Shown here one piece after another: positions 31,102 to 62,741 of a DNA stretch of 64,000 nt (the stretch's first letter is position 1; every line of letters starts with the position of its first letter). Made by a program: the position numbers and the translations under genes. This DNA is from Ascidia mentula (lineage: Eukaryota > Chordata > Ascidiacea > Phlebobranchia > Ascidiidae). Location: the NCBI GenBank assembly GCA_947561715.1, contig OX387198.1:13516001-13580000 (forward strand). The letters run 5' to 3'. The notes under the pieces are model-generated. The model worked only from the letters and a program-made list of their open reading frames with translations, was not told the origin of the DNA and ran no database searches.

Positions 31102-31545
31102 ATGAGCAGTGATGAGTGGGTTTGTTATGAGGGTGAGGTAATACATCAAGTTACATTCTCCAAGCTTTGGCACCGCAACGGCAGTCGCGCAATCACTATG
31201 GAAACGGGAGATAAGAGACCTTGGGCCATCTGGAAATCAACGACCGGTGGTGAAGTGATCTTGGGTGTTCACGAGGGCCCGAAGACGTTGTACTTGGGAA
31301 AGACTCAAAAGCGGTCCGGAACCGCCCTGAAAGACATTGCGGGGATTGCGGTTGGCAGTACGCCGTCCAAAGACACTCCAACAGATGATGATCGGTGTTT
31401 CAACTATGTGAGAAGCACTCTAGAACCTTCCAAATCGGTTCTGAGGCATGTTGTATCCGGTATGTTCCTGTGCAGGAACGAAAAGGGGAAATTGTGCTTC
31501 AAAGACCGCGAGGTGCTTGCTGACGACTGGCTAATCAAGATTTGA
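31102..31545 (+). CDS. leaderless beta-trefoil protein, type I, copy 1
   Basis: 147 residues, single exon as read, no signal peptide or membrane segment. The C-terminus VLRHVVSGMFLCRNEKGKLC...DDWLIK is a typical trefoil strand-loop-strand repeat (SGxxLCxNxKGKL is very FGF-like), but the FGF signature Cys and Glu are absent. Upstream RPWAIWKSTTGGEVILGV and KTLYLGKTQKRSG suggest the other repeats. It aligns along its length with the gene at 33772 (DEWVCYEGEV...KLWHRN against GGWQVSCAEL...KLWPRF). It could be an FGF-like or IL-1-like ligand, a fascin-like actin binder, or a lectin; sequence alone does not say. First ATG chosen, where the homology with the neighbour begins. Confidence 0.65.
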   Translation: MSSDEWVCYEGEVIHQVTFSKLWHRNGSRAITMETGDKRPWAIWKSTTGGEVILGVHEGPKTLYLGKTQKRSGTALKDIAGIAVGSTPSKDTPTDDDRCFNYVRSTLEPSKSVLRHVVSGMFLCRNEKGKLCFKDREVLADDWLIKI

Positions 31546-33771
31546 CGCTTCTGCGGGTACCCTGGGTTCACACCTAGGGCAAAGACCATCTGCAAAATTG
31601 TGCCAAGTAGTGAAGAAGTTTGCGCTTGCTTTTGCTCGTAGTGCTTTATGCGTAGCCATACACTTCGCCACGTTAAATGTCTATACGGTGTCAAAAAATG
31701 TTCGCACACAACTGACATGTATTCGTGAAACCACCAACCAAGACATATTTGGTTTTGCCTGAAGAGCGACTATCAGCCATCAAGTCAGCATCGACTCAAA
31801 TAACAATAAAATGTTGGTATACGTTCGCATGCGAAAAAAGAGGCTCGCATATACTGCTTAAAGCCTAACTTACGTCTACATATTTTTAAACGGATGAAAG
31901 TCATTGGTTAATTTCCCTCTCACTGTTGTTAGGTAGAAATACAAAGTCGCAAAGAGAGTTGCGATTTTAACTGCGACCAGATTGAGTACTCTTATACGAA
32001 TATGTACGATTATTTTTCATGTGATAAACCTACACCAGGAGAGCACAGTTGAAACCTTCGCGTACCAATGTGGTTTCCAGGCCATAATGTCATCTGGTTT
32101 CTTGCACGTAATTTTAACATGAGAGAATGTGTGCGGCATTTTTAGGGGGGTAATGTTTTCCAATACAGGAATGTCAAACAAAACATGTTGGCAAAAGAAG
32201 AAATGCTTGCATTTTTAACCTTGTTGGGGCTAAGACAATATAAAAATAAACACGTCCAGTCAAAAATAAGACATTTCGTCAGAGCTATAAACACAATATT
32301 ATTTTATAAATCATTGCAAAGGACCTATTGGCAAATTTGGTTATGTACAGAGTTGCCATAACGTTTTAAAGGTCGACGCCTTTGAAAGTACGAGCTTCCT
32401 TAATTATAAGATTTTTCCTCATTTGTGACTATTAGCGCCACATTAAGCTGTCTACCATCACACGTCCTCATATTCAATATGTTTTGGTTCAATAAAGATA
32501 AATGATGCGACTAAAAGTAAAATATTTCATCATGTTGAAGTTTCTTTATTATGTAAAAACTTGGGAGATAATAATTCGTATATATTCCTTTCCGCCGACA
32601 TTATTTTGAGATCGACATCGAAGGCGGTCACGGCTACATGCGTGTCATTTTGAAAGCAATTTCGTGCCACATTAGGTACCATCGCCCCATGCGGTGGCGT
32701 TGAAGCCTGCCCAATATTTTAGGGATTTAGGCAGAGTTTGTGGCTCAATACATCGCCACTACGAAGCTGAATACCGAGGTGTGTTTTAGGACAAATTATA
32801 TTTATAAAAACTATGCTTTATTTTAAATATTAAAATAAACTAACTTGCAAATTTGGAAGGAGCCAGGGTCTCTTTGACCCCTTTACCTTAAGTTTGATGG
32901 TAATGTGCTTATTTAGAACGCCGGCGGAACGTTTGTTATTATCAAGAAAAGTCTATTAATGCAGGTTATCAATAATTTATATCCTAAAAAGTAATGTCTG
33001 TCAAGTTGGGTCGCGACCCCGTTTTTGCGATTAATTTGATTTTGTTCGCTTTTGTGTCGCCACAATGCAAAACGTTTCCCTGGTTCGGGAGTTTGAAACT
33101 GCATTACCTTGATGGATCTGCGTCGATTTTATCAATTATTCATATTGAGAAGCGTAGTAGGCTGGCATCACGTCCTCGTGGATCGCAAAGCCCTAATTCC
33201 CTTCCCGTGGGAGTTACGCGAAATTCTAAACAAACATGGCCGGCCCCGCTGTGCAACACAGCGGTCGCATTTAACTGTTGAAATCAACAGTTAGCACTGA
33301 TAACTGCAGGGCGAGGCTCCTGTTCGCAGCATTTCGTTGCGCTTTCCTATTTTTCGTTTAACACCGACGTGTAATCAGCAGCCTGAATGTTTTATCAGAT
33401 TATAGTAGGGCGAACATTTGGCAGCTGTATAGACTGCAAGAATGAAAGACTTTGTGTACAGCAACTGGTCAAATCAGACGGCTCGTTTAAAAGTAGGCAT
33501 TTCAGTTTAGGTAAAACATGAACCTGTTTTTGGTGCTGCACATTTTGATTAATGTCAACAGGCGAGATGTGCAACAGATTTTGCATCAACAGAAGAACTG
33601 TAATAACTTGGATAGCGTAGGAGAACTGTAACAACACATTTTAAGAAGAACTTATTTTTAGATTTAGAGCTAAAACTGTGAAGTTATAAACTGTGATTTA
33701 TGGTGTAAAACGTGTTTTTGTACAAGTATTCTTACTCTGGTGATCATTTTCCGGTGGAGAGCGGTTATAAC
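31546..33771. other. intergenic between the two type I beta-trefoil genes
   Basis: No gene recognised. Near 33010 a GGGTCGCGACCC palindrome resembles inner sequence of hAT MITEs, but ends were not found. AATAAA at 31804 could serve the upstream gene. Confidence 0.35.
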
Positions 33772-35044
33772 ATGGGTGACAATACGTCGAGTGAAACTTG
33801 TTGCCCAAATCCCGAAAGTTTGGAAAGAGGAGGTTGGCAGGTAATGGTGACAAATATATTATTGTAAAAACCCGATGCTTGCCCGAATTCTTATTGAAAC
33901 TACCAAATAACGTATATAAAATACATATATGTATGGGGCGCAGTGTAGACCAGTAACTGCCATGCGTTTACGTCTCGCATCTGGTGTTGGACAAAAGGTT
34001 TATCTTAACAATGACTTTCGTTCAACTTTACCATGCTTTGTCTTGCGCACGCATGGCTATCTAATACTCATTTAAGGACAAAAATCGCTATTAGCACCTC
34101 ACGTTGTGTTTTAAATAAGTACGTACAATAACTTATGCCATAATCCGTGCAATATACACCTCAGTTAAATACCAGTATTTACCGATAATGCACGCAAAAA
34201 ATAGCTAATGCATTAACATGCGAAAAACTTTACGGTCGTCCGCGCAATCAACGAACGCTAAAAAAATATCCTCTGCGCAACTAACAAACTTTCCAACCTG
34301 GGAACTGACCTCACGTTACAGTTCGTAGATAAGGCTCGCGTGAGTGATGACGTCACATATCATCAATATCAGTCAAACACAGTAAAAGAGCGCAAATCAC
34401 AACAAATAAACATCAAACAGAAATAGTGAAGCGGATTTTGTGTCCCCATTAAATTTGTGGTTATGCTCCATGCGGGCCGGTATCTTTGTCTTCAGAATTA
34501 GGAGTAAATCCTGTACATTGTCTTGTCTCATTGTTAGTGTTATACGTTAGGTGCTGTTCAGTATGTTTATACATTATTATTGGTTTTAATTTTTCCATAG
34601 GTGTCATGCGCCGAGCTTTCTCACGCTGCAACCGCGCGAAAACTCTGGCCTCGGTTCATACGGAAGAAGTCACGTGTGACGGCTGAATTCTACAACGAGA
34701 CGCGACAATGGACAGTGTGGGAGAACTCGAACGGCGACTACGTCTTCGCCGTGTCGGTGTGCAAATGTACGAACAGAAAGCTCTACTTGAGAACGAGAAA
34801 GAGTCGCCTGGATCGACGGATTCGTCTCGTCATAGGCAAAGGTAAAGTACCCAGCGAGGGCACCACGGAGCGGGACAAGCGTGTTTTCCAATTTCAAGTT
34901 TCCGCGCTTGATAACCAGTTCAAAATCAAGCATGCCCGCTCGGGAAAGTACCTGTATTGCGACAAGAAGGGTAACTTGCGCTTGGGAAAAAAAGAACAGG
35001 GCGCAGACTCATGGGATATCAGTAGGCTGGTTGAAGTTGAATAA
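33772..35044 (+). CDS. leaderless beta-trefoil protein, type I, copy 2
   Basis: Two exons, 33772-33840 and 34601-35044, joined in phase 0 (GGWQ/VSCAELSH), give 170 residues. The donor is GTAATG and the acceptor TTCCATAG. Homologous to the gene at 31102 over the whole length. Trefoil-like repeats: RQWTVWENSNGDYVFAV, RKLYLRTRK, and the clear C-terminal repeat FKIKHARSGKYLYCDKKGNL...GADSWDI. Rich in Arg/Lys (RTRKSRLDRR), which could bind heparin or nucleic acid. No signal peptide: the N-terminus is MGDNTSSETCCPNPESLE. Together with 31102 it heads the array of related genes to the right, but on the other strand and with an intron. Confidence 0.65.
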
Positions 35045-42220: not shown

Positions 42221-42599
42221 TACCGTATTTTACGGACCATAAAGCGCACCCGATTATAAGGCGCACTGTCAATAAATTGCTTTGATTAGTTTTTGTTCAT
42301 ACATAAGGCGCACCGGGCTATAGAACGCAACGTATTTTAAGGAGTACGGGTTACCGTATAAAGCTAATATATGTAAGCAAGTCACAATAGTATGAATATC
42401 ACAGTTGCTAGTTGCTTTTACCGTAGTTTATTGTGTAAGACGGTGGTTTATTTATAATAGTATCGGTACTGGTTTTGAGTGTAGGCAATAAAACACTACT
42501 TGATCCATACATTAGGCGCACCGGCTTATAAGGCGCACGATCAATTTATGAGGAAAAAAAAGGATTTAAGTTGCGCCTTATGGTCCGTAAAATACGGTA
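42221..42599. mobile_element. MITE with TA target duplication, absent from the paralogous blocks
   Basis: Ends CCGTATTTTACGGACCATAA and TTATGGTCCGTAAAATACGG are perfect inverted repeats, flanked by TA. Inside are repeated GGCGCAC motifs. The four paralogous sites (near 44159, 48333, 49889, 54338) have the uninterrupted AATG(T/C)TCTATT, so the site before insertion is known. TA duplication suggests a Tc1/mariner-type parent. No coding capacity. Confidence 0.9.
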
Positions 42600-43119
42600 C
42601 TATTCTTACGACACAAAGTAAGTGGAAAGTCAATGAGGTGTCACTGTACGGTGCAATACATAGATTCTCAACCTTGTTTCTTAGCTGTTGACGTTGACTT
42701 TGCCAAACAACTTTAAAGTTCAATGTATATACAAACGTCAACCTGTTTCTCTTCAAACAGACGAAAGAAAACCGTTCAAGCATAACAAACCGTTGTGACT
42801 AAGACATAATGGACCCCAATGTGCTCGGGTGAGTTTCAGCAGTACAGAATTTTTATGCAGTAATAGGCAAGACCGTATGAGCCGGTTTAACGCCCTGATC
42901 TAACCACAATTCAAAACATCACTACAAAAATTTACATGCAGCACAATGAAACAAAAACTAAGGCTAAGAAAGAAGGCAAAATTTACTCTTGGTCATCTTC
43001 AGATTTAAACAGTTTGACCCAAACAACGCATCAGTGGTGATTCTGCAGAGCCCGTCCCTTGATCCACATAAACACGTGAACATTTGTGGCCTACACACGA
43101 CATCAGGTTAAACCTTGGT

Positions 43120-43686
43120 TCACTGGTGTTTAAATTGCACAGGAGGTTCATTATCCCCCACAAGTTCCACCACTCCTGCCCTGACACCAAAGTGCATCCC
43201 GCTATGGACATGCTTCACGACCACAGCATCACTTCTGTTGATGTCAAGCTTGATTTGAAAAAGATACCGACAAGTATTAGGATGCCACGTGTGTTTCATA
43301 CGCAATTTGCCCTTCGTCGGGTTGGTAAAGATATATTTCGCAGTAGCCACGTCTTTAAGGTATCCTTTTCTCGCCGCGACATCCGTTAAATAAAACTTCC
43401 ACCTACTTGGAGTGTTGTGATGCTCCAAGTACAAAATTCGATCGTTTTTGCGCGGCAAGCAATGTTTACCAGTGTCCAATTCTTCCAGGGATATTTCTTC
43501 ATTGTCCCGAATTAAGTTTTCGATGAACGCAAAAAGCCTTTGGGGCAAAGAATTGTGTTCCATCGTTTCTGGCTCGTCAGATAACAGACCTAGTGGGCCA
43601 TCAACTGTGTCAAATGCTTGGCCTTGTTCCCTGTCCGAATCTGCGTCGCCACTCCCACAAAAGCATAGGCATCGCACAGCGTCCAT
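43120..43686 (-). CDS. leaderless beta-trefoil protein, type II beta-1
   Basis: 188 residues, one exon, ATG at 43686. N-tip MDAVRCLCFCGS (three Cys), GDADSDREQ, FDTVDGPLG, helix LPQRLFAFIENLIRDN. Trefoil: SLEELDTGKHCLP...WKFYL, GYLKDVATAKYIFTNPTKGK, VKHVHSGMHFGV...VQFKHQ. About half identical to the alpha proteins by eye. Differs from beta-2 (48855) at 15 bases of 567, 12 of them amino-acid changing. Core promoter at 43761-43782. Function unknown; cytosolic or released without a signal peptide. Confidence 0.72.
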   Translation of the reverse strand: MDAVRCLCFCGSGDADSDREQGQAFDTVDGPLGLLSDEPETMEHNSLPQRLFAFIENLIRDNEEISLEELDTGKHCLPRKNDRILYLEHHNTPSRWKFYLTDVAARKGYLKDVATAKYIFTNPTKGKLRMKHTWHPNTCRYLFQIKLDINRSDAVVVKHVHSGMHFGVRAGVVELVGDNEPPVQFKHQ

Positions 43687-43760
43687 TGTTAAAGCTTTTT
43701 ACTCTTTTCTATGGCCTATACTTTCGCGTATAGTACGTGTTAACAAATGGTCTATGAGCT

Positions 43761-43782
43761 GTATAAAAAGGTGATGATGTCA
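43761..43782 (-). promoter_or_regulatory. CRE-like + TATA box of beta-1
   Basis: The minus strand reads TGACATCATCACC then TTTTTATAC, 76-96 bp before the ATG. One change from the TGACGTCA of the relic promoters at 41741 and 53888. Confidence 0.6.
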
Positions 43783-44266
43783 GGTTTGAATAATATTACA
43801 AATTACTACATGGAGATACACAATAAGCCACCCGGAAAACAGTAACTCATCCAAATTGATTCGAAAGACGCGGTAATGTTGCTGTGCACAACATACCAAC
43901 TTTTCCTTAATTGAACCCTTTGCTATTTGTACGCGACACAGTGCTTCACTACTATGATTAAGTCTCAAGGTAAACAAAAAACTTTCACCCTACACTAATT
44001 CGTCCAAAATGCATTATTCAAATTTTATTAATCAACCCTAAGCTATTGGAAACCTACACTATACGCCCGAACGATCATTTCGATTCATCTCCCAACCGTG
44101 CGTCCATCGAGATGCCACCTAGCATAGGAATTACAACCAGGTAAATACCCTGGGGGAATGCTCTATTCTTACGACACAAAGTAAGTGAAAAGTCAATGAG
44201 GTGTCACTGTACGAGTGCAATACATAGATTCTTAACCTTTTTCTTTTGAAACGACAGGTTTTGAAG

Positions 44267-44530
44267 ATGCAGTGTTTCTACCGGTTTCTGGCAATAATGT
44301 TAAGTTACAATGTCTTTCTTACTGCATGTGCATTACATTGTAAAACGAATTTGGGCCAAATTACACCAATGATTCTTCGACAACCAGAAAAATTTGCAAA
44401 TTTTTGCTTGCTGCAACTCCCAAGAGTAACTTCCTGTTCCAGAAACCCCCACTCAAAGAGCTGTGTATGTGACAAACGTCCTGCTCAATCAGAAACATTG
44501 CTTCACGCAAACAACTTTGGTTTAGTTTAA
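44267..44530 (+). CDS. possible small secreted protein (copy 1)
   Basis: 87 codons from ATG. The N-terminus MQCFYRFLAIMLSYNVFLTA looks like a signal peptide; about 65 residues follow with Cys at HCK, NFC, SCS, SCVC. Identical in the duplicate at 49997 and broken in the third copy at 54439. It could also be an exon of a longer gene, as an acceptor-like CAG/G precedes the ATG. Opposite strand to the trefoil genes. Not recognised; may be chance. Confidence 0.3.
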   Translation: MQCFYRFLAIMLSYNVFLTACALHCKTNLGQITPMILRQPEKFANFCLLQLPRVTSCSRNPHSKSCVCDKRPAQSETLLHANNFGLV

Positions 44531-46494
44531 AACTAATGCCAAGGGAAGGTTAAGTGCGCATGCCTTGTGACTGTTGCAAATAAACCACCATCAACTCTTA
44601 CACCTTAGCTATCTCGACAAAGTTTGTATAGACATGCAATCAAACAAAAAGACTGGATAAATTTCCTACAATATTATAAAACGTTTGCTAGCACAGCAAG
44701 GTACAGCGCAATAAAACGGGAAAAAAAGTTTGCTGAACTGCGGAAGCCAAATGCAGAGAAAGAAGACTTTGTAAACATTGAACAACTTTGATTGACGTGT
44801 GCTGTCGAGCGAGACTGAGGTTCTTTAGAATGTATGTGAGCTTTTGTGTTGAGTCCGGTATCACGTGATGTTATTGAATACAAATCCGGTACTGAAATGT
44901 CCTGAAGTGTCCCGAAGTCAACCATAAAACCAAGACGCTTATTGCGGGAAATAGTGAACACGTATTGTAAACATGTCCCTGATAAAATGTGGCTGTTACT
45001 CCTTATTTCAGCAAGTTTTCAGACGATTGATTCATTGATTCACTGAAAAATACATTCGGCTGCTAACGTTGCTTCACGTATGAAGCATTCGCGTATGCAA
45101 CGTTTATTGCCCTTTTCTACTTTTTTATGCGTTTTATGCAATGTAACCCTGATTTCGCTTGCCTTCATATTTATGATTCAACATAAATTCATAAATCGAG
45201 TTTTTTTATCATTTTATGTCGTACACTGTTGGTTAATTTGTCGTTCGTAAAGTTTGTGGGGCTTCTTTTCTGGCAATTAGGCCTACTTTAAAATCGTTTA
45301 TCGTTATTACAAAGCAATAGTCAAATAAAAATTAATTAGTGCAAAAGCTTTGGTGAAATGTTAATAAAATAGGAGACTATTGTGTTGCATTCAGCAATTT
45401 AACACAAAAAACGCTACATGCAGCTTAGACTGCTATAGCACAGTTTGGAGGAAACCTTTGCCTGGCGGTTGCTGTCTCATTACAAGTCTCCAGTAGAAAT
45501 TGACTGGCTGTATATCAGGCAACTGCCTGTTCTGGGCGAGTTCTCCAAACCTTGCTTAGCTCTCCAGAATATCATGGACAACAGGTATAACTCTAAGTAT
45601 TGTAATCATACAAACCCGAAGGTTGGCAACAATCTTCTGATTTGTTATACTTCGTTTCAGTAAACAGTAGCATTCAATGGCGTATCAAACTGGAATTTGT
45701 TGGAGACAGAGATATGGTCGCTTTTGAGAGAGGCATACGAACGCGATTAGTTGAAACTGGTCACGCATGATCGACACCAGGAGTTGTTTTCAAAATGTCG
45801 CAACTGGCGTTTCAGCAGCGATATATACAACGATATATGCGTCGATGCGTCGATGCGTAATTTATAATTGAGCCCGCGACTCCAATACCTTTCATGCAGT
45901 ATCTATGCACTATTGCTGTTATGTGTGCTGAAGTGTGCTTGCTTTTTGGCAATAAAATTAAATAGCATTAGTGTGTATGTATATAAACACTCCACAACAT
46001 TAAGCGAATCAGCTATATTTTGAGTATTACCAAACTTTCCCAACCGTTGTGTTAGTAGAGATCAGTAAGGTTAAGTTGAAGGCAAATTACAGCACTGTAT
46101 TTAACCATTTTGTGGTAATATTCTATGGTGCGTAGTTGCATAAATATCGGTACTTAAAAGAAGCTGTAACATCTAAAGAAAATGTTTAATGATAAAAATC
46201 CAAGTGTACATCAAACGACGATTTGTCTCAGAGGGGTCGGGTACGGAACGCTGTTGTCATTCACGCTTTCGATTTGCCGACAAAAGATAATCGTTCAAGC
46301 ATGACGAAAACATAGACCACACAAGCCGCTATTTTCTGATAGGCAGATTGGTGAAAAGGTACCTGTAGTTACAAAGTGTTACTCTTGTACATTTTCGTAT
46401 AGTGTTGAAGGGTTAGAAAGCACAGAAAATGTTTGCCCTTTCTCCTGTGTGTGGTGGTTTTACTTTTGTGGTAGGGCAGTCCCCCCTTCTATAG

Positions 46495-47070
46495 TCACTG
46501 AAGCTGAAACAGCAAGGGATTTTCATTTTCGTTCACAAGTCCCACCATATTCTTTTCGTATGCACCAAAGTACATCCCGCTGTTGACATGCATCACATGC
46601 AAAGTATTATTTCTAATGTCGGTCTTGATTTGGAAAATATAGGGTCGAGAATTTGGAAACCGTGTCCTTCTCATGTGCAGTTTACCCCTCCGCGGCCTTG
46701 CGCAGATGTATTTAGATGTGTGGCTGTCTTTAAAGTACCCCTTACTCGTCCCGGTATAATGAAACTTCCATCGTTTCGGAGTGTTGTAATGATCCAAGTA
46801 CAGATCTTGGCTATTCTCGTGTGGCCAGCAATACTTGCCGGTGCCAACTTGGCGCAGAGATCTTTCCTCTGAATAGCCAAACAAGTTAGAGAAGAACAAC
46901 TGGATTCTTTCGTGCCAGGAAAGCTGTGTAAAAGGCTCTGGTTCTTCAGGTGAAGCGCCGATTGGGCCATCGACTGTGTCAAATCCATGGTTCTGTTCTC
47001 TTTCTGAATCAGCGTCGTCACTCTTACAATAACAACTGTTTTGAACAGTTTGATTTGCGCAGTAGTCCAT
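46495..47070 (-). CDS. leaderless beta-trefoil protein, type II alpha-1
   Basis: 191 residues, one exon, ATG at 47070. N-tip MDYCANQTVQNSCYC, SDDADSEREQ, D31-T-V-D34/G35 within FDTVDGPIG, helix LSWHERIQLFFSNLFG at about 50-65. Trefoil from about 71: SLRQVGTGKYCWP...WKFHYT, GYFKDSHTSKYICARPRRGK...YIFQIK, VMHVNSGMYFGAY...LLFQLQ. Differs from alpha-2 (52201) at 4 bases, one changing an amino acid. Promoter at 47149-47167. Confidence 0.73.
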   Translation of the reverse strand: MDYCANQTVQNSCYCKSDDADSEREQNHGFDTVDGPIGASPEEPEPFTQLSWHERIQLFFSNLFGYSEERSLRQVGTGKYCWPHENSQDLYLDHYNTPKRWKFHYTGTSKGYFKDSHTSKYICARPRRGKLHMRRTRFPNSRPYIFQIKTDIRNNTLHVMHVNSGMYFGAYEKNMVGLVNENENPLLFQLQ

Positions 47071-47148: not shown

Positions 47149-47167
47149 TGTAAAAAGTGATGACGTC
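47149..47167 (-). promoter_or_regulatory. CRE-like + TATA-like core promoter of alpha-1
   Basis: The minus strand reads GACGTCATCAC then TTTTTACACAGC, about 80 bp before the ATG. Confidence 0.58.
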
Positions 47168-47805
47168 GGGTTAATTGATTTTGTACATTGCTACGTACAC
47201 AATATAGGGTGCACCACCAGGAAAACCCACAAAATCCTGTGAGTCACTGTGATGTATGCTGATAAACACAACACAGTGCCAACTTTATTTCATGACAACT
47301 TGTTTGCACAGGACTTCATGGGCACAGTCTTGACCTGACTTTGCGTGGATACTTTGGTTATTGGGTAACAATTAACACAAGGGACTCGTTTGCTGTACTC
47401 TAAGCCTGTTCTATCAGTCACTTTTACATGACTCTGTCTCTTGCTAACGACCAAATCAAACTGATTTAAACCGTTGCACATCCTTGTTCGGTCCTAATCT
47501 ATCCTGTACCTCTACCAGATACACATTTCCCATACATACCATACACACTGTGCTTCCATTTGTAAAGCACCATTCTATTACCAGGTACTTTCCACACAAA
47601 AAATCCCGTGATGTTGCACGGGAGAAAAGTGGGTATAGCGTCAGACTTGCTCAAGCAAAAATTTTGTTGTTGTAAGCCCCTGTGTGCTGCTTTGTATCAC
47701 TCACTTTAATCTAGTTGTTGTAAATGTACACTTCAAAACACAATCAAATCATCCAGTGATGGCAGGAACTTAAGGTCGGTTTACACGAGTTCATCACGAA
47801 AGTGT

Positions 47806-47870
47806 CCGAAACTGCGTCGCCACTCTCACAACAGAATAGGCATCGCACAGCGTCCATTGTTAAAGCTTTG
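47806..47870 (-). pseudogene. relic of a beta-type gene start
   Basis: The minus strand contains TTTAACAATGGACGCTGTG and the next 40 bases of the beta coding start, then unrelated DNA. The promoter half is missing. Marks the join between duplication units. Confidence 0.6.
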
Positions 47871-48854
47871 AATCAGGTTTGAATAATATTACTAATTACT
47901 ACATGGAGATACACAACAAACCACTTGGAAAACAGTAAATCATTCAAATTGATTCGAAAGACGCGGTAATGTTGCTGTGCACAACGTACCAACTTTTCCT
48001 TAATTGAACCTTTTGCTATTTGTACGCGACACAGTGCTTCACTACTATGACTAAGTCTCAAGGTAAACAAAATTGCTTAAGTCAAATACAATGACGTTGT
48101 CAAAGGGGAAATTAATTTTCAGTGCGTTCTGTCAGTTGCATCTTTGAAACTTTAACCCTATACAAATTCGTCCAAAGTGCATTATTCAGATTTTACTTTT
48201 TATCGACACAAGACCATAGGAAACCTACACTATACGACCGAACAATCATTCAATTTTATCTCCCAACCTTTGGTCTTTTGAGATGCAACTTAACAAAGGA
48301 ATTTTACAACCAGGTAAATACCCCGAGGAATGTTCTATTCTTACGACACAAAGTAAGTGGAAAGTCAATGAGGTGTCACTGTACGGTGCAATACATAGAT
48401 TCTCAACCTTGTTTCCTAGCTGTTGACATTGACTTTGCCAAACAACTTTAAAGTTCGATGTATATACAAACGGCAACCAGTTTCTCTTCAAACAGACGAA
48501 AGAAAACCGTTCAAGCATAACAAACCGTTGTGACTAAGACATAATGGACCCCAATGTGCTCGGGTGAGTTTCAGCAGTACAGAATTTTTATGCAGTAATA
48601 GGCAAGACCGTATGAGCCGGTTTAACGCCCTGATCTAACCACAATTCAAAACATCACTACAAAAATTTCCATGCAGCACAATGAAACAAAAACTAAGGCT
48701 AAGAAAGAAGGCAAAATTTACTCTTGTACATCTTCAGATTTAAACAGTTTATCCCAAACAACGCATCAGTGGTGATTCTGCAGAGTCCGTCCCTTGATCC
48801 ACATAAGCACGTGGACATTTGTGGCCTACCCACGACATCAGGTTAAACCTTGGT

Positions 48855-49421
48855 TCACTGGTGTTTAAATTGCACAGGAGGTTCATTATCCCCCACAAGT
48901 CCCACCACTCCTGCCGTGACACCAAAGTGCATCCCGCTATGGACATGCTTCACGACCACAGCATCACTTCTGTTGATGTCAAGCTTGATTTGAAAAAGAT
49001 ACCGACGAGTATTAGGATGCCGCGTGTGTTTCATACGCAATTTGCCTTTCGATGGGTTGGTAAAGATATATTTCGCAGTAGCCACGTCTTTAAGGTATCC
49101 TTTTCTCGCCGCGACATCCGTTAAATAAAACTTCCACCTCCTTGGAGTGTTGTGATGCTCCAAGTACAAAATTCGGTCGTTTTTGTGCGGCAAGCAATGT
49201 TTACCAGTGTCCAATTCTTCCAGGGATATTTCTTCATTGTCCCGAATTAAGTTTTCGATGAACGTAAAAAGCCTTTGGGGCAAAGAATTGTGTTCCATCG
49301 TTTCTGGCTCTTCAGATAACAGACCTAGTGGGCCATCAACTGTGTCAAATGCTTGGCCTTGTTCCCTGTCCGAATCTGCGTCGCCACTCTTACAACAGCA
49401 TAGGCATCGCACAGCGTCCAT
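48855..49421 (-). CDS. leaderless beta-trefoil protein, type II beta-2
   Basis: 188 residues, one exon, ATG at 49421. Same layout as beta-1. N-tip MDAVRCLCCCKSGDADSD has four Cys in a CLCCC run, which could be S-acylated. FDTVDGPLG is kept. Trefoil repeats TGKHCLP, AKYIFTNPSKGKLRM and VKHVHSGMHFGV. Changes against beta-1 sit in the N-tip, the helix (FTF for FAF) and exposed trefoil loops (PRR for PSR, TRHPNTRR for TWHPNTCR, VTAGVVG for VRAGVVE). Promoter at 49492-49513. Confidence 0.72.
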   Translation of the reverse strand: MDAVRCLCCCKSGDADSDREQGQAFDTVDGPLGLLSEEPETMEHNSLPQRLFTFIENLIRDNEEISLEELDTGKHCLPHKNDRILYLEHHNTPRRWKFYLTDVAARKGYLKDVATAKYIFTNPSKGKLRMKHTRHPNTRRYLFQIKLDINRSDAVVVKHVHSGMHFGVTAGVVGLVGDNEPPVQFKHQ

Positions 49422-49491
49422 TGTTAAAGCGTTTTACTCTTTTTTACGGCCTACTTTCGCGTAGTACGTGTTAACAAAAGGCCTATGAGCT

Positions 49492-49513
49492 GTATAAAAA
49501 GGTGATGATGTCA
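49492..49513 (-). promoter_or_regulatory. CRE-like + TATA box of beta-2
   Basis: The minus strand reads TGACATCATCACC then TTTTTATACAGC; same as beta-1. Confidence 0.6.
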
Positions 49514-49996
49514 GGTTTGAATAATATTACAAATTACTACATGGAGATACACAATAAGCCACCCGGAAAACAGTAACTCATCCAAATTGATTCGAAAGAC
49601 GCGGTAATGTTGCTGTGCACAACATACCAACTTTTACTTACCTAAACCCTTTGCTATTTGTACGCGACACAGTGCTTCACTACTATGATTAAGTCTCAAG
49701 GTAAACAAAAAACTTTCACCCTACACTAATTCGTCCAAAATGCATTATTCAAATTTTATTAATCAACCCTAAGCTATTGGAAACCTACACTATACGCCTG
49801 AACGATCATTTCGATTCATCTCCCAACCGTGCATCGATCGAGATGCAACCTAGCATAGGAATTACAACCAGGTAAATACCCTGGGGAATGCTCTATTCTT
49901 ACGACACAAAGTAAGTGAAAAGTCAATGAGGTGTCACTGTACGAGTGCAATACATAGATTCTTAACCTTTTTCTTTTGAAACGACAGGTTTTGAAG

Positions 49997-50260
49997 ATGC
50001 AGTGTTTCTACCGGTTTCTGGCAATAATGTTAAGTTACAATGTCTTTCTTACTGCATGTGCATTACATTGTAAAACGAATTTGGGCCAAATTACACCAAT
50101 GATTCTTCGACAACCAGAAAAATTTGCAAATTTTTGCTTGCTGCAACTCCCAAGAGTAACTTCCTGTTCCAGAAACCCCCACTCAAAGAGCTGTGTATGT
50201 GACAAACGTCCTGCTCAATCAGAAACATTGCTTCACGCAAACAACTTTGGTTTAGTTTAA
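49997..50260 (+). CDS. possible small secreted protein (copy 2)
   Basis: Identical in every residue to the frame at 44267, with the same candidate signal peptide and Cys pattern. Identity reflects the recent duplication and does not by itself show coding function. Confidence 0.3.
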   Translation: MQCFYRFLAIMLSYNVFLTACALHCKTNLGQITPMILRQPEKFANFCLLQLPRVTSCSRNPHSKSCVCDKRPAQSETLLHANNFGLV

Positions 50261-52200
50261 AACTAATGCCAAGGGAAGGTTAAGTGCGCATGCCTTGTGA
50301 CTGTTGCAAATAAACCACCATCAACTCTTACACCTTAGCTATCTCGACAAAGTTTGTATAGACATGCAATCAAACAAAAAGACTGGATAAATTTCCTACA
50401 ATATTATAAAACGTTTGCTAGCACAGCAAGGTACAGCGCAATAAAACGGGAAAAAAAGTTTGCTGAACTGGAAGCCAAATGCAGAGAAAGAAGACTTTGT
50501 AAACATTGAACAACTTTGATTGACGTGTGCTGTCGAGCGAGACTGAGGTTCTTTAGAATTTATGTGAGCTTTTGTGTTGAGTCCGGTGTCACGTGATGTT
50601 ATTGAATACAAATCCGGTACTGAAATGTCCTGAAGTGTCCCGAAGTCAACCATAAAACCAAGACGCTTATTGCGGGAAACTGTAGTGAACACGTATTGTA
50701 AACATGTCCCTGATAAAATGTGGCTGTTACTCCTTATTTCAGCAAGTTTTCAGACGATTGATTCATTGATTCACTGAAAAATACATTCGGCTGCTAACGT
50801 TGCTTCACGTATGCAACGTTTATTGCCCTTTTCTACTTTTTTATGCGTTTTATGCAATGTAACCCTGATTTCGCTTGCCTTCATATTTATGATTCAACAT
50901 AAATTCATAAATCGAGTTTTTTTTATCATTTTATGTCGTACACTGTTGGTTAATTTGTCGTTCGTAAAGTTTGTGGGGCTTCTTTTCTGGCAATTAGGCC
51001 TACTTTAAAATCGTTTATAGTTATTACAAAGCAATAGTCAAATAAAAATTAATTAGTGCAAAAGCTTTGGTGAAATGTTAATAAAATAGGAGACTATTGT
51101 GTTGCATTCAGCAATTTAACACAAAAAACGCTACATGCAGCTTAGGCAGCTATAGCACAGTTTGGAGGAAACCTTTGCCTGGCGGTTGCTGTCTCATTAC
51201 AAGTCTCCAGTAGAAATTGACTGGCTGTATATCAGGCAACTGCCTGTTCTGGGCGAGTTCTCCAAACCTTGCTTAGCTCTCCAGAATATCATGGACAACA
51301 GGTATAACTCTAAGTATTGTAATCACACAAACCCGAAGGTTGGCAACAATCTTCTGATTTGTTATACTTCGTTTCAGTAAACAGTAGCATTCAATGGAGT
51401 ATCAAACTGGAATTTGTTGGAGACAGAGATATGGTCGCTTTTGAGAGAGGCATACGAACGCGATTAGTTGAAACTGGTCACGCATGATCGACACCAGGAG
51501 TTGTTCTCAAAATGTCGCAACTGGCGTTTCAGCAGCGATATATACAACGATATATGCGTCGATGCGTAATTTATAATTGAGCCCGCGACTCCAATACCTT
51601 TCATGCAGTATCTATGCACTATTGCTGTTATGTGTGCTGAAGTGTGCTTGCTTTTTGGCAATAAAATTAAATAGCATTAGTGTGTATGTATATAAACACT
51701 CCACAACATTAAGCGAATCAGCTATATTTTGAGTATTACCAAACTTTCCCAACCGTTGTGTTAGTAGAGAACAGTAAGGTTAAGTTGAAGGCAAATTACA
51801 GCACTATATTTAACCATTTTGTGGTAATATTCTATGGTGCGTAGTTGCATAAATATCGGTACTTAAAAGAAGCTGTAACATCTAAAGAAAATGTTTAATG
51901 ATAAAAATGCAAGTGTACATCAAACGACGATTTGTCTCAGAGGGGTCGGGTACGGAACGCTGTCATTCACGCTTTCGATTTGCCGACATAAGATAATCGT
52001 TCAAGCATGACAATAACATAGACCACACAAGCCGTTATTTTCTGATAGGCAGATTGGTGAAAAGGTACCTGTAGTTACAAAGTGTTACTCTTGTACATTT
52101 TCGTATAGTGTTAAAGGGTTAGAAAGCACAGAAAATGTTTGCCCTTTCTCCTGTGTGTGGTGGTTTTACTTTTGTGGTAGGGCAGTCCCACCTTCTATAG

Positions 52201-52776
52201 TCACTGAAGCTGAAACAGCAAGGGATTTTCATTTTCGTTCACAAGTCCCACCATATTCTTTTCGTATGCACCAAAGTACATTCCGCTGTTGACATGCATC
52301 ACATGCAAAGTATTATTTCTAATGTCGGTCTTGATTTGGAAAATATAGGGTCGAGAATTTGGAAACCTTGTCCTTCTCATGTGCAGTTTACCCCTCCGCG
52401 GCCTTGCGCAGATGTATTTAGATGTGTGGCTGTCTTTAAAGTACCCCTTACTCGTCCCGGTATAATGAAACTTCCATCGTTTGGGAGTGTTGTAATGATC
52501 CAAGTACAGATCTTGGCTATTCTCGTGTGGCCAGCAATACTTGCCGGTGCCAACTTGGCGCAGAGATCTTTCCTCTGAATAGCCAAACAAGTTAGAGAAG
52601 AACAACTGGATTCTTTCGTGCCAGGAAAGCTGTGTAAAAGGCTCTGGTTCTTCAGGTGAAGCGCCGATTGGGCCATCGACTGTGTCAAATCCATGGGTCT
52701 GTTCTCTTTCTGAATCAGCGTCGTCACTCTTACAATAACAACTGTTTTGAACAGTTTGATTTGCGCAGTAGTCCAT
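52201..52776 (-). CDS. leaderless beta-trefoil protein, type II alpha-2
   Basis: 191 residues, one exon, ATG at 52776. Near-identical to alpha-1; the only replacement seen is Asn to Thr in the acidic segment (EREQTHG). Same DTVD/G site, amphipathic helix and trefoil repeats. Promoter at 52855-52873, where the TATA-like box reads TTTTTAGACAGC. Confidence 0.73.
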   Translation of the reverse strand: MDYCANQTVQNSCYCKSDDADSEREQTHGFDTVDGPIGASPEEPEPFTQLSWHERIQLFFSNLFGYSEERSLRQVGTGKYCWPHENSQDLYLDHYNTPKRWKFHYTGTSKGYFKDSHTSKYICARPRRGKLHMRRTRFPNSRPYIFQIKTDIRNNTLHVMHVNSGMYFGAYEKNMVGLVNENENPLLFQLQ

Positions 52777-52854
52777 TGTTAGTGCAGTACTCTCTTTCAG
52801 TGAAGAATTGGCCTAAATTATCCCAGTACGGATTAATAAACGGTTCTGGCGCTG

Positions 52855-52873
52855 TCTAAAAAGTGATGACGTC
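52855..52873 (-). promoter_or_regulatory. CRE-like + TATA-like core promoter of alpha-2
   Basis: The minus strand reads GACGTCATCAC then TTTTTAGACAGC, about 80 bp before the ATG. Confidence 0.55.
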
Positions 52874-53574
52874 GGGTTAATTGATTTTGTACATTGCTAC
52901 GTACATAATATAGGCTGCACCACCTGGAAAACCCACAAAATCCTGTGAGTCACTGTGATGTATGCTGATAAACACAACACAGTACCAACTTTACTTCATG
53001 ACAACTTGTTTGCACAGGACTTCATGGGCACAGTCTTTACCTGAATTTGCGTGGATACTTTGGTTATTAGATAACAATTAACACAAGGGGCTCGTTTGCT
53101 GTACTCTAAGCCTGTTCTATCAGTCACTTTCAAATGATTCTGTCTCTTGCTAACGACCAAATCGAATTGATTTAAACCGTTGCACATCCTTGTTCGGTCC
53201 TAATCTATCCTGTGCCTCTAACAGATACACATTTCCCATATATACCATACATACTGTGCTTCCATTTGTAAAGCACCATTCTATTACCAGGTACTTTCCA
53301 CAAAAAAATCCCGTGATGTTGCGCGGGATAAAAGTGGATATAGCGTCAGACTTGCTCAAGCGGAAATTTTGTTGTTGTTAGCCCCTGTGTGCTGCTTTGT
53401 ATCACTCACTTTAATGTAGTTGTTGTACATATACACTTCAAAACACAATCAAATCATCCAGTGAGGGCAGGAACTTAAGGTAGGTTTACACGAGTTCATC
53501 ACACCTACTTTTTTATTATAGCAAACATTTTGTGGCTAATCCAGTCCTGGTAACACCCGCGTCATCAGTTAAGG

Positions 53575-53910
53575 CCTTAGTTCACTGGTGTTTAAATTGT
53601 ACAGGAGTTTCATTATCCCCCACAAGTCCCACCACTCCTGCCGTGACATCAAAGTGCATCCCGCTGTAGACATGCTTCACGACAACAGCATCAGTCATAT
53701 TGATATCAAGCTTGATTTGAAGAAGATACCTTGATCAGTGATATTGATATCAAGCCTTGATCTGTGTCCAAATCTGCGTCGCCACTCTCACAACAGCATA
53801 GGCATTGCACAGCGTCCATTGTTACAGCTTTGTACACTTCTATGGCCTACTTTCCTGTAGTACGTGTTTACAAAGTGTCTATGCGCTGTACAAAAAGGTG
53901 ATGACGTCAG
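53575..53910 (-). pseudogene. beta-type gene with internal deletion (beta-3 relic)
   Basis: From the right: CRE-like TGACGTCATCACC, a damaged TATA-like box (TTTTTGTAC), then the beta start (ATGGACGCTGTG..., near 53820) with about 17 codons. The sequence then jumps to the last trefoil repeat (53580-53735), with a short repeated ATTGATATCAAGC at the junction. The helix, the DTVD site and two trefoil repeats are missing. Confidence 0.75.
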
Positions 53911-55049: not shown

Positions 55050-55330
55050 ACCAGGGCTACATTTGTTGAAACTCCAATGGGTTTCTGTCTTTGGTAATCA
55101 GCACTACTTTTTATCTTTAGTCGATTCCAAAATATTGACCACTGTGAACATGCTTCACCAACAGAGCGCAGATGGTCATGCTGGATATCATCGATATAAG
55201 GAGGGGAATTCGGTGTGGCTGTCTTCCCCAGGGTAAGAACCTGCCTTACTGGAAAGGCATAGATGTATTGTGATGTGCTTGGATCTATAAAGTTGAATTG
55301 GCATTATACCAACTGTTCCTCCATCGGAAA
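55050..55330 (-). pseudogene. type II beta-trefoil relic
   Basis: Minus-strand fragments RNSWYNANS, STSQYIYAFPVRQVLTL...TPNSPPYI and VKHVHSGQYFGID with frame changes: trefoil repeats 1-3 of an alpha/beta-like gene. Its nearest relative is the relic at 60300-60520. Confidence 0.65.
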
Positions 55331-56310: not shown

Positions 56311-56387
56311 TCAATGAACGAAACGCAACGATTTGATTTCTTCCTGAACCAACACAACATTTTGGCGATCTTTACCGACACCAAAAT
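56311..56387 (-). pseudogene. relic: last 25 codons of a gamma-type beta-trefoil gene
   Basis: The minus strand encodes FGVGKDRQNVVLVQEEIKSL and the same C-terminal end and stop as the intact gene at 62157. The rest of the gene is absent. Confidence 0.65.
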
Positions 56388-56876
56388 GCAGAAACGAAGT
56401 CCCTTCATACATTGTGACGTGGTGCTTCCGCGCGATTAAAGTTCTTTCGAATAATGCTGCTTTCAACTATACAGTTTTGATACAATAAATCATCTTTGCA
56501 GACTATGGAACGCTAGAAGCACGATTTAACAAAGTAAGGAACATTTTGAAACGTAAACTCCATATGCGCACTTCATGTATTGAAAACTCCAAAAACTCCA
56601 TAAACTCAGGGGTTCCGAAAGTTTACGTTGACTGTCATAAATGAACAAAGTTAATTACATTACATATAATACCTACTCGCACGCAAATTTTATTCTGCTT
56701 GTCTTTTCAGTTCACCAACTTTACGTGCAACTTGCGATCGAAGCCGAAATACAAAACGCTGCTAACTTGCTTCACGTCTGAAGTGTTATCGACGACATCA
56801 AATCCGATTTTGACGACCAGTCGCACCAGTTGATCGACGTTTTATTTTACACGCGATGTAACTGACGTTTGGTTTT

Positions 56877-58680
56877 TTAACATGTTTCCATCGATACTGG
56901 ATCCTCTATTCCCGTTTCAGATAGTTGTGATGAAGGTTCACCTTTTTCACACGGTTTAGTACGGTTGCTTTCTGAGTCTCTTTTGTGTCGTTTTGCTCCG
57001 TTTTTTTTCTTGTTTTCTTGTGAGCCCGTATGAGTTCGTTTGTTGTTTCTTTGAGGAATAAGAGATCCATCACTTTTTATCCAACCCCAATTTTCGGCTT
57101 TAAGTACATTAAGATTCAATTTTTTCCACTGACAAACCTGTAAAACAGACACTTAATTGCTGGCATGTTATTTTCAAAAACCACACATTTAAGGTGCAAA
57201 ATGAAATTTACTGAGAAATTATAGATGTATTCATGCCAGATTACCTGCAAGTGCACTCTGTATGAATGATAGCGATAATCTTTTGTCGTTGGCGGTAATT
57301 TCTTGAAATCGACAACGGAAGGCGACTTTAGCATTTCCTTGTACCTACTTCGACGCAGCCCGTCCAGAGAACTAATTGATCCTGGTGCCCCAAAACTGTA
57401 TCCAACGATAATGGATCATTATCTAAGGTTATAGGTGCAAAAAGATCACTCATATTTACGCTTAGATTAGCTTTGTTTTTTTAAACTGACCTTGCCAACA
57501 TGATTTCTTCACCTGCTTTGGCTATTTCATCTTGTGAGACTTCAGTTTGTCCGAACTTGTCAGCAAGCTTTTGAATGTTTCTGTCTTTTAGGTTTTCCAA
57601 CACCTTATTTTTGCCTATGATATAAATTTGAATATTGTATTAATAATAGGGAAATTTATGGGGCGTCGTCGGCTCAGTCGTCAGGTTTTCATTACAACAC
57701 TTTGACTGACGCTTATAGGCATATGCATAAAAATGGCTCTCTGGTAATACTCCCGGGTATTTACGACATTTTGGTTGCCATGCAACAACCATGAAGGTTT
57801 TTTGAACCTTAGACCATGTCATAGTCCATTACATTCCTTGTCAGTGGTAAAAATTATAATTGATTCAAAAAGAAAACTGTTGTAAATAACTTAATTGCTT
57901 AAATCGAAAAATTAAATCACACTCATTAATCTTACCTTCACCATACGTTGCAGAAGTTGTGTCACATCCGCTCCAAGCATGAGCAAACAGCAAGTTCTTA
58001 GCTGATGGGGATTTATTTAATTGTTTAACAATATTACCTATCTCCCAAGTCTTCTGTATGTTTTGTTGTTTACATTGAAAGTAAATTGTTTTCCTTCTCA
58101 TATTTGCAGCATTACAATGATGACATAAAAGAACCAGGATATCTACATCTTCAGTAACCACGGCAACTTTTTTATGTATTGATTTTTCCAAGGTCATGTT
58201 TACTAAACTGGTATCTGCATCACTTTCGGCGCAATATACAGAAAAACCTTTTTCCTCAAACTTTTTACTTAACATTGCTTTAATCTCCTCTTTTCTACTT
58301 TTGTCACTCTTAAAATTGATGCCCCAGCAGGGGTCATCGTCCTTTTTTGTTGCAGTTTCATAGCGTCTCCTTTGTTCATGGTCTTTCGTTGAATTTGTGG
58401 CAGAATATCCATCGAATACAAATGTTATGTTTTTTCCATCGTATTGCTTATCAATCAAGGTATCAACGTATTTTTCGCCATCCACCTTTGATTTTAGCTG
58501 TTTGTACTTGTGTACCAATGGACCACCATCTATCACGTATTCGTTAATATCAACAATCGTTTCGGGGCCGTGCAATTGTAAAATAAATTTTCTCAGCTTT
58601 GTTTTCGGTGTGTTTCTCATCCATTCGCCGGAAAACAATGAGTTGTCTTCTGCCACTTCGTCCTCGCCGAGAACTTCCAT
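56877..58680 (-). CDS. FEN/XPG-like (PIN-fold) nuclease-family protein, repeat-type
   Basis: Four exons, 58680-57936, 57614-57491, 57395-57245, 57137-56877, join in frame (TYGE-G/GKNKVL; MLA-S/FGAPG; HLQ/VCQW) for 426 residues. Acidic motifs in FEN/XPG order: IDGGPLVHKY, FVFDGYSATNSTKDHEQ, ESDADTSLV, TEDVDILVLL, then SGCDTTSATYGEGK, matching the GCD...G.G hairpin of FEN1. The C-part has KLPPTTKDYRYHSYRVHLQV and ENWGWIKSDGSLIP, then a Lys/Ser-rich tail. Proteins of this type occur in many copies in invertebrate genomes, which suggests a link with a mobile element; none has a function I can name. The frame is open upstream to about 58755 without an ATG, so an N-terminal exon may be missing. It lies inside the trefoil array. 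Confidence 0.7.
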
Positions 58681-60299: not shown

Positions 60300-60520
60300 T
60301 TGAAGTCAACTTAAAAACCGACACGTATCAAATATATAATGTGAGGAATTCGGTGTGGCTGTCTTCCTCAGGGTAAGAACCTGCCTTACAGGGAGGGAAT
60401 AGATGTATTTTGATGTGCTTGGATCTATAAAGTTGCCACTGTTTTTTTCTTTTTTTATCGAGTTGGCATAATACCAACTTTTCCTCCCGCGGAAACGAGT
60501 CGTGATCAAAACCTTTTCTC
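60300..60520 (-). pseudogene. type II beta-trefoil relic
   Basis: The minus strand encodes RGRKSWYYANSI and then GNFIDPSTSKYIYSLPVRQV and TPNSSHYIFDTC, matching trefoil repeats 1-2 of the alpha genes. The start and third repeat are lost. Confidence 0.6.
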
Positions 60521-62156
60521 AGTTGCGCTTTGGCGGACAATTCGACCTTCCAGTACGCAATCTTGAGTGCCAAGGATGTTCTAAAACCTCAATCAAGTAT
60601 TGATAATTACGGTCTTGCACAGTGATTTGGAAATAAAACTTTAGATATCGTTCGTTCATGGGTTTTTTTCTGCTTAAGCCTTGTATACGTCCAGCAAACC
60701 TTCAATTACATGTTAGATTCTTGCTCAACCGAATTGCTTTCTACAAAAAAGCTTCCTAAACCTTCACTCGCACTCACCTCGATTGATTAAAATTTTTCCC
60801 TTTATGTTTAGCAGTTATCTAGTTTATAGATATTTTATTGAAACTTTTTCTGCAGATGCAGTTTGTGAGTGATTTCACAATTTTCTATTTTGTATAACGT
60901 TACTAATCTATTTGCGACCTATATAGTTAGTCGTGCAAACCCTCGCTGGGCTGTGTAACAATAGGGCTTTGTAACCGGTGTGGCGCTGCGCAAGTAGCAT
61001 AGAATAATATCATCGAACGCCTTCGTTTGCTTGCCTCAAGTTGTAAGTTCGTCTCAAGCGCGAATGACGCTTTACAGTCCATTTGCACAAGGAATTATTT
61101 GTAATCCGTGCGCAAGCACGTGTTGCATGATGCATAAAAATATTCAGTTGAGACCAAAATACATACCGCTGCTAACGTGCTTCGCGTATGCAACGTTTAT
61201 TGCCCTTTTCTACTTTTTTATGCGTTTTATACAATGTGAGCCTGATTTCACTTGCCTTCATATTTATGATTCAAAGTTTTTTACCATTTTATGCCGTACA
61301 CTGTTGGTTAATCTGTCGTTCGTAAAGTTTGTAGGGCTTCTTTTCTGGCAATTAGGCCTACTTCAAAAATCGTTTTACGTTATTACAAAGCAATAGTAAA
61401 AAAAAAATTAATTAGTGCAAAACCTTTGGTGAAATGTTAATAACATAGGAGACTACTTGTGTTGCATTCAGCAATTTAATACAAAAAAAGTAACATTCAG
61501 CTTAGGCAGCTATAGCACAGTTTGGAGGAAACCTCTGCCTGGTTGCTGTCTCATTACAAGTCTCCAGTAGAAATTGACTGGCTGTATATCAGGCGACTGC
61601 CTATTCTGAACGAGTTTTCCAAACCTTTACTTAGCTTTCCGGAACGTCATGGACAACAGGTATAACTCTGAGTATTGTAATCACACAAACCCGAAGGTTG
61701 GCAACAATCTTGTGATTTGTTATACTTCGTTTCAGTAAACAGTAGCATTCAATGGCGTATCAGACTGGAAATAGTTGGAGATAGAGATACAGTCACTTTT
61801 GAGAGAGGCCTACGAACGTGATTCGTTGAAACTGGTCACGCATGATCGACACCAGGAGTTGTCCCCAAAATGTCGTAACTGACGTTTCAGTGGCGATATA
61901 TACAACGAAATAATACGAGGAAAACGCGGAATATGGAATGTATGCAAACGGTTACTTTGCGCAGAAAATAATTATTTTTAAAGTGAATTGTTATCGTACA
62001 CGTTAGTATGAGCTGATGTGCGAATTCCATGAGAGGATTTGTATTGACCGTTTTTGCTGAGCACACACCTTATGGTCGTACAAAGATATACACGTGAATG
62101 ACGCTGACAACACTCATGACCACTGCAAACAATTTTGCACAAAACGAGACCTAAAG
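60521..62156. other. eroded duplicate of array spacer
   Basis: 60915-61145 matches 55828-56060; 61190-61390 matches 45098-45310 and 50810-51030; 61400-61900 matches 45330-45850. No intact gene. Confidence 0.5.
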
Positions 62157-62741
62157 TCAATGAACGAAACGCAACGATTTGATTTCTTCCTCAACCAACA
62201 CAACTTTTTTGCGATCTTTACCGACACCAAAATAGTACAGCTTGCTATTTTCCCTGTAGATCACCTGAAATGTGTCTTTGATGTTGTTGTACCTTAACTC
62301 GAAGGTAAACCTTTCTGGCTTTTTATCAGGTTTTTGTTTTGTCATGCGAAGAGCATTTGTCTTTGCGTCTGCGACGACGTATTTTTCCTTTGCCCTTGTG
62401 TCACGCGTGTAGAAAAAACCTCTATTCCCGGTCCTGTCTGTTGCAGAAAAGTTCCACCACATTTTTTCATTTTGAGCCTCCAAATATATCCACTTTCTTT
62501 TTGGCCAACAATATTCACCTGTAACGCTGTCACACAGATGTATTTTCAGATCATGTCTCGACGAGCTGACCCCTGACGTTTGTTGTTTCGCTCGTTTATG
62601 TTCTATTGTTGTTGAACTTTCTCCAGCCGCCTCTTCCCTTTTTTGAGTAGTTGCCCTGTCAGATTGACGGGTATTATAGGCCCTTGCAGATTTGAACTCA
62701 CTTCGGTTCTCCTGTGGATTGTCGCCAACATTTTTCTCCAT
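62157..62741 (-). CDS. leaderless beta-trefoil protein, type II gamma
   Basis: 194 residues from the ATG at 62741 (MEKNVGDNPQENRSEF). The frame is open to another ATG at 62915 (252 residues), but a TATA-like sequence (GGTATATGG, about 62930) lies only about 15 bp beyond it, and the shorter form matches the 188-194-residue paralogues. The N-part is polar and lacks the DTVD site and helix. Trefoil: SVTGEYCWPKRKWIYLE...WWNFSATD, RAKEKYVVADAKTNALRM...FTFELR, NSKLYYFGVGKDRKKVVLV...LRFVH. About a quarter to a third identical to the alpha proteins by eye. Oldest member in this window. Confidence 0.65.
   Translation of the reverse strand: MEKNVGDNPQENRSEFKSARAYNTRQSDRATTQKREEAAGESSTTIEHKRAKQQTSGVSSSRHDLKIHLCDSVTGEYCWPKRKWIYLEAQNEKMWWNFSATDRTGNRGFFYTRDTRAKEKYVVADAKTNALRMTKQKPDKKPERFTFELRYNNIKDTFQVIYRENSKLYYFGVGKDRKKVVLVEEEIKSLRFVH

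Follow-up and report, generated by a model that had tools for sequence, protein, structure and literature searches.

A family of small, predicted beta-trefoil proteins encoded in tandem arrays on chromosome 2 of the tunicate Ascidia mentula

A 64,000-nucleotide stretch of chromosome 2 of the tunicate Ascidia mentula (the window) encodes members of a gene family that, in the reading we tentatively favour, is unnamed, fast-evolving and specific to tunicates, its small products each having a single beta-trefoil domain and being perhaps ligand- or alarmin-like. The original prediction of nine intact genes, two of type I on the plus strand and seven of type II on the minus strand, is borne out by the open reading frames and a splice model (Table 1). 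The type II genes are intronless, while the better-conserved type I gene of the window (33772) consists of two exons joined across a phase-0 intron; this splice model is supported because an orthologue from Phallusia mammillata aligns to both exons. A tblastn search with 24 family queries (E<=0.01) recovered six type II relics, all on the minus strand, matching the predicted number of at least six.

Table 1. Genes, relics and duplication of the family in the window
Feature	Coordinates	Strand	Basis and remarks
Type I gene, 147 aa, leaderless	31102..31545	+	One-exon ORF; 31% identity to the second type I gene of the window
Type I gene, exon 1, 23 aa, CCP motif	33772..33840	+	GT donor after 33840; resembles N-terminus of Phallusia P0002
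Type I gene, exon 2, entire predicted trefoil domain	34601..35044	+	CCATAG acceptor ends at 34600; spliced protein 170 aa
Type II gene, 194 aa	36540..37124	-	ORF
Type II gene, 191 aa	39836..40411	-	ORF
Type II gene, 188 aa, CLCFC close to N-terminus	43120..43686	-	ORF
Type II gene, 191 aa, chief search query	46495..47070	-	ORF
Type II gene, 188 aa	48855..49421	-	ORF; 94% identity to 43120
Type II gene, 191 aa	52201..52776	-	ORF; 99% identity to 46495
Divergent type II gene, 252 aa (194 aa if the ATG is at 62741)	62157..62915	-	ORF; near-identical copy in the second array
Type II relic	53585..53819	-	tblastn
Type II relic	55060..55291	-	tblastn
Type II relic, resembles 62157	56314..56421	-	tblastn
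Type II relic, resembles gene at chr2:13580377	56710..56937	-	tblastn; internal stops
Type II relic	60327..60566	-	tblastn
Short type II relic, only 17 codons	61147..61197	-	tblastn, E 1e-4
Tandem duplication, copies 42597-47797 and 48332-53502	42597..53502		Self-blastn of the window; 97.4% identity over 5205 columns

Genome-wide, no fewer than 18 type II genes are intact; they make up two chromosome 2 arrays, separated by about 0.2 Mb, and one gene elsewhere. The five type I genes are all on chromosome 2. Both arrays are headed by type I genes, and the array of the window extends beyond its end, to about chr2:13583140. The region is multicopy, relic-rich and carries repeats, as might be expected if its genes came from mobile elements or viruses and not from the host. 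Such an origin is, nevertheless, highly improbable: the copies are not dispersed, the tandem and inverted duplications take their flanks along, no transposon or viral family matched the family above the cut-off, and the type I orthologue is present in Phallusia. Values of dN/dS were 0.32 and 0.36 in the two pairs that have diverged furthest while keeping a usable dS, which speaks for real genes. None of 20 Fisher tests detected a non-synonymous excess (lowest p 0.29).

Judged by their sequences, types I and II are homologous across the whole domain: 117 columns of the two profiles were aligned with a score of 47.0, the maximum in 200 column shuffles being 19.6. The 23 proteins (18 of type II and five of type I) are 147-263 aa long with a single domain each, and consist of a variable N-terminal segment, often acidic or cysteine-bearing, followed by one predicted trefoil of about 125 residues, the core of which lies within one exon in both types.

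The Phallusia orthologue of type I (P0002, 'Uncharacterized protein LOC100187199') shares 62% identity with exon 2 of the 33772 gene, 97% of which is aligned, and matches exon 1 too; it is itself uncharacterised, and no paper in the literature searched carries the name LOC100187199. For type II, no relative was found among 5.8 billion proteins either at E<=0.01 (1038 candidates) or at E<=0.1 (2593 candidates), in a search that requires shared 5-residue words and may therefore miss distant relatives. The predicted lineage-specific expansion is supported for type II by its genomic copies and the lack of outside relatives found for it; type I is present in Phallusia too. No usable match to Pfam, NCBIfam or PDB was obtained with the type II proteins, and in the searches made of Pfam, NCBIfam and PDB sequences the family corresponds to no named one, as the original prediction had it; any cytokine function is accordingly putative. 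No paper on such genes was found in a literature search that did not extend to most subscription journals.

The proteins of the family likely adopt a beta-trefoil fold, as suggested by several individually weak lines of sequence and modelling evidence (sub-threshold Pfam matches, PDB profiles and low-confidence models). AlphaFold models of one type I and one type II protein, both of low confidence, match trefoils in VIA-align, the sole source of the structural matches. For the type I model (31102), IL-18 tops the matches by about one Z unit, and those of the type II model include, among many others, IL-1b and IL-33 at 3.8; fascin, hisactophilin, SeviL, CBM42 and a Marasmius lectin were also matched. 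The profile searches of the spliced type I gene gave mostly trefoils, but none above the cut-off: in Pfam, its exon 2 (exon 34613) matched Fascin, FGF, RicinB_lectin_2 and Beta-tre_PLH30. The best PDB profile matches, local to H-x-x-SGKYL, were RyR2 (E 0.007) and IP3R3 (E 0.11), whose MIR trefoils belong to giant channels; Sarol-1 was also among the profile matches. The first type I profile, built from five sequences, gave seven PDB matches (five RyR2/IP3 receptors and two DNA polymerase III tau), and P0002 alone matched Mitsuba-1 (E 0.03) and three unrelated chains.

Some other matches were rejected. Botulinum neurotoxin light chain, an unrelated fold and the only PDB match of the type II profile (E 0.07-0.37), and WD40 proteins, matched by 31102 (E 0.03-0.43), were attributed to chance, and the matches to DUF, PH, GyrI, MRH, glycosyltransferase, tet_protect and similar families were sub-threshold and scattered.

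The three internal repeats noted by eye in the original prediction lack statistical significance. In hhalign comparisons, the R1-R3 pair was equalled by 1 of 100 shuffles, R2-R3 by 23 and R1-R2 by 80, and in a global profile test z was -0.23, as 149 of 300 shuffles scored no lower than the unshuffled profile. In many true trefoils, too, the three-fold repeat goes undetected at the sequence level.

The weak Pfam matches to trefoil families of the ricin and ulvan-lyase types, together with SeviL, CBM42 and the Marasmius lectin in the structural comparison and Sarol-1 in the profile search, would be consistent with sugar-binding trefoils, intracellular or released, acting as lectin- or toxin-like defence proteins. 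Defence would also fit the expansion and fast change of the family, but no lectin family was matched above threshold, and this explanation seems unlikely.

The FGF family (FGF1, FGF8, FGF18) has a single trefoil, as predicted for the proteins described here, and shows weak local similarity around IKHxxSGKYL. The present family might be a runaway lineage of a true FGF gene, multiplied after the loss of its introns and leader, given the sub-threshold matches to Pfam FGF (PF00167) of exon 34613 (best 18.1 bits vs a cut-off of 24, E 0.0028) and of P0002 (E 0.12), and the appearance of FGF1 and FGF8 in PDB searches. However, in the FGF genes of the same genome the matches run from exon to exon through a core split by introns, whereas the type I and II cores are intronless. 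The FGF signature pattern is absent from all 23 proteins, and the trefoils of IL-18, RyR and fascin match equally well or better, leaving descent from FGF with a low probability.

The predicted absence of signal peptides was confirmed for the window genes by N-terminal hydropathy calculated from the chosen ATGs. The highest 12-residue value is 0.29 and 0.72 for the two type I proteins of the window and at most 1.07 among the 18 type II proteins, all of them devoid of a hydrophobic leader; a clear one (2.64) is present in one type I paralogue outside the window. Of the 18 type II genes, the seven in the window were checked for upstream in-frame stops, and all have them 12-45 nt before the ATG. 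Many members carry cysteine clusters ahead of the predicted trefoil: CYC, CLCFC, CCPC, CFFCCC and, in one of the type I paralogues, CCLC.

These clusters, next to basic and aromatic residues, could, if acylated, attach the proteins to membranes as intracellular trefoils that bind actin or lipids, like the intracellular trefoil proteins hisactophilin and fascin. Absence of a leader would agree with this, as would Fascin being the best weak Pfam match of exon 34613 (20.7 vs a cut-off of 23.1 bits, E 5e-4) and the presence of both fascin and hisactophilin among the structural matches. On the other hand, fascin consists of four tandem trefoils and these proteins of one predicted trefoil, no known actin site is present in the family, several subfamilies have no cysteine clusters, and one paralogue has a leader. 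Fast turnover and relics would also be odd for cytoskeletal genes. Altogether, this explanation is less probable than the favoured reading, while deserving some weight.

The IL-1 superfamily (IL-18, IL-36, IL-38, IL-33, IL-1Ra) is among the closest known systems. It shares with all 18 type II and both window type I proteins the absence of a leader, one type I paralogue having one, and with the family an N-terminal segment, which may act as a pro-segment. It is conceivable, but improbable, that types I and II are invertebrate IL-1-type leaderless trefoil cytokines, some of them cut by caspase near DTVDG and read by Ig-TIR receptors. The DxxDG motif is found in seven of the 18 type II proteins (five DTVDG and two DEEDG), perhaps by chance; eight TIR matches were found in the genome. 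No family member matched Pfam IL1 (PF00340) at E<=1, the IL-1 signature pattern was found in none of the 23 proteins, and an IL1 Pfam search of the genome gave no match, though no control was detected either.

Under the favoured reading of small, perhaps ligand- or alarmin-like trefoil proteins, type II, which shares an ancestor with type I, would have multiplied by tandem and inverted duplication, genes often dying. As the likeliest mode of action, the predicted trefoil would be kept in the cytosol or at the membrane, serving as a binding or signalling module, and would be released upon cell damage or once the N-terminal segment is cut, by analogy with leaderless trefoil ligands such as those of the IL-1 type and FGF1/2. 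Both release and binding are uncertain. Rapid sequence change would be the mark of defence or other conflict.

Since the host is a tunicate, a member of the sister group of vertebrates, the IL-1 question becomes sharper. If the IL-1-type reading were true, the IL-1-like activities that have been reported in tunicates would find their molecular counterpart in these proteins, and such ligands would predate, or have arisen beside, vertebrate IL-1. The leaderless trefoil-like family and its Phallusia orthologue provide concrete genes for testing, and even if its members are not ligands, they make up a family that changes fast and has no name, in the lineage nearest to vertebrates.

According to the profile comparison, the type I and type II proteins are one family. 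In genome searches with single proteins, queries of either type did not retrieve the other, and the relationship emerges from the profiles, which aligned over 117 columns, nearly the entire domain (probability 93, with E 2.9e-7 calculated for a single comparison; probability 89 and E 2.3e-6 when a smaller type I set was used). The score of 47.0 compares with a mean of 11.0 and a maximum of 19.6 for 200 column-shuffled profiles, and with 16.4 for a reversed profile. In a 25-row tree, with the midpoint root used for drawing only and long branches flagged by the program, the two types stood apart with 100/99 support.

The window (chr2:13516001-13580000) carries two type I genes on its plus strand; its seven intact type II ORFs all lie on the minus strand. 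The original prediction of this gene set with at least six relics was sound, six relics being recovered by tblastn with 24 family queries; the three sequence repeats that it had described were not upheld. The two exons of type I gene 33772, spliced in phase 0, encode 170 aa, and the model gains support from P0002 of Phallusia mammillata, a protein with matches to both of them. A 5.2 kb unit is present as a tandem duplicate (97.4% identical). Within the array there is also a tRNA match of 46 bits (55567-55640, plus strand), which may represent either a tRNA gene or a repeat derived from a tRNA, and a 297-residue open frame (57865-58758, minus strand) whose match to NYN_YacP is weak (E 0.003, short of the cut-off) and which has no relation to the family. 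The left half of the window carries ordinary nuclear genes, including an AIG2-like gene, a Myb/SANT exon, and RING, B-box and Tudor exons, presumably RNF17-like from their domain order.

Features of the family and its surroundings in the Ascidia mentula genome
Feature	Position	Strand	Remarks
Type I gene 33772, exon 1	window 33772-33840	+	ends in GGTTGGCAG, then GTAATG donor
Type I gene 33772, exon 2	window 34601-35044	+	preceded by CATAG acceptor
RING, B-box and Tudor exons	window 2194-14167	+	
Two tandem type I-like genes	L070 1078-1836 and 2324-3103 (chr2:13.298 Mb)		cysteine-rich stretches CCLCLLVCPWKP, CCLFIFACPWKP at about residues 26-41
Second array, nine intact type II genes	chr2:13.309-13.347 Mb		
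Single type II gene off chromosome 2	C71:5.017 Mb		
Inverted duplication arms	chr2:13343086-13348734 and 13581913-13576326	inverted	second arm = window 60326-64000 and beyond

Searches of the genome (195.8 Mb in 79 contigs) give counts that are lower bounds, with at least 22 matches at E<=0.1 for the 46495 protein. Intact type II genes number at least 18: seven in the window, one just beyond its end, nine in the second array and one on contig C71; one more copy is interrupted by two stops, and searches with the type II loci L014 and L019 yielded further relics and no extra intact type II gene. Five type I genes were found: one at chr2:7.88 Mb, two in the window and two as tandem ORFs directly preceding the second array. 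Plus-strand type I genes head both arrays. The far ends of the arrays are joined by a 5.67 kb inverted duplication, its arms 97.5% identical and about 228 kb apart, through which inversion or gene conversion between the arrays could occur. Elsewhere on C71 (10013454-10029367), three open frames in tandem, 995-996 aa long, each have a TIR match. On the mitochondrial contig (C79, 19,461 bp) the COX1 frame yields the canonical protein when AGR is read as glycine, as in the ascidian code. The published genome note on Ascidia mentula, in its available part, reports 197.0 Mb, nine chromosomes (2, 3, 5 and 7 being 19.88, 23.17, 22.35 and 19.87 Mb), 95 scaffolds and a 19.46 kb mitochondrion (PMC11109543).

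Read from the chosen ATG, the 18 type II proteins all begin without a hydrophobic stretch. In six of the seven window type II genes, an in-frame stop separates the ATG from an acceptor-like site 68-75 nt upstream, and the seventh (62157) lacks such a site and has an in-frame stop 12 nt upstream, which makes a hidden leader exon unlikely in these seven. A conserved GACRTCATCAC-like stretch, recognised by eye, lies 68-110 nt upstream of the ATG in six type II genes (36540 to 52201), with the core ACGTCA in four and ACATCA in two, directly followed by an acceptor-like TTTTTAnACAG. The N-terminal segments are variable: DTVDG occurs in five members, CFFCCC in L014, and in four members WYKRCCPC comes after a segment rich in Gln and Glu. 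Caspase sites of the type DxxD|G resemble DTVDG; 36540 (DTVSE at that place) and the majority of the other subfamilies lack it, which counts against a role common to the whole family. Among type I genes, the one at chr2:7.88 Mb encodes a hydrophobic leader (MALLLCKFMLLLLSCRLAESA), much like the start of the database protein P0001, and the product of the first L070 gene has, at residue 28, a stretch that is hydrophobic and rich in cysteine; the cysteine-rich stretches of both L070 genes are possibly acylated. Candidate intracellular trefoils, bound to membrane or actin, would be a rather improbable reading, ranked next after a ligand or alarmin role.

Nei-Gojobori dN/dS, computed for 14 pairs of which two gave no usable ratio, was 0.08 for 46495/52201 and 0.32 and 0.36 in the two most diverged pairs; the other nine, which are less diverged, ranged over 0.48-1.18. 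In three paralogues of the second array (array B) substitution is faster in the trefoil than in the N-terminus (for instance, dN 0.145 vs 0.014 for L016/L018), with no significant excess of non-synonymous over synonymous change.

Among 5.8 billion proteins, no type II relative was found, and type I had two at E<=0.1: P0001, with the source 'lgn', and P0002, annotated as uncharacterised LOC100187199, of which the literature searched held no mention. The predicted beta-trefoil fold is likely, and those defining sequence features that could be tested lend no support to IL-1, FGF or fascin membership. In the available part of one review, no IL-1 orthologues are found outside vertebrates, though receptors are present, and IL-1-like activities are reported from tunicates (PMC9020223). 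Multiple origins of the trefoil are argued to be possible in the accessible text of another paper (PMC12225799), weakening any step from fold to function. IL-18 and IL-33 have been argued, in the portion available, to have evolved apart from the IL-1 group (PMC5861070), which would be a precedent for a separate tunicate origin. A putative role as ligand or alarmin is the reading that we tentatively favour for this family.
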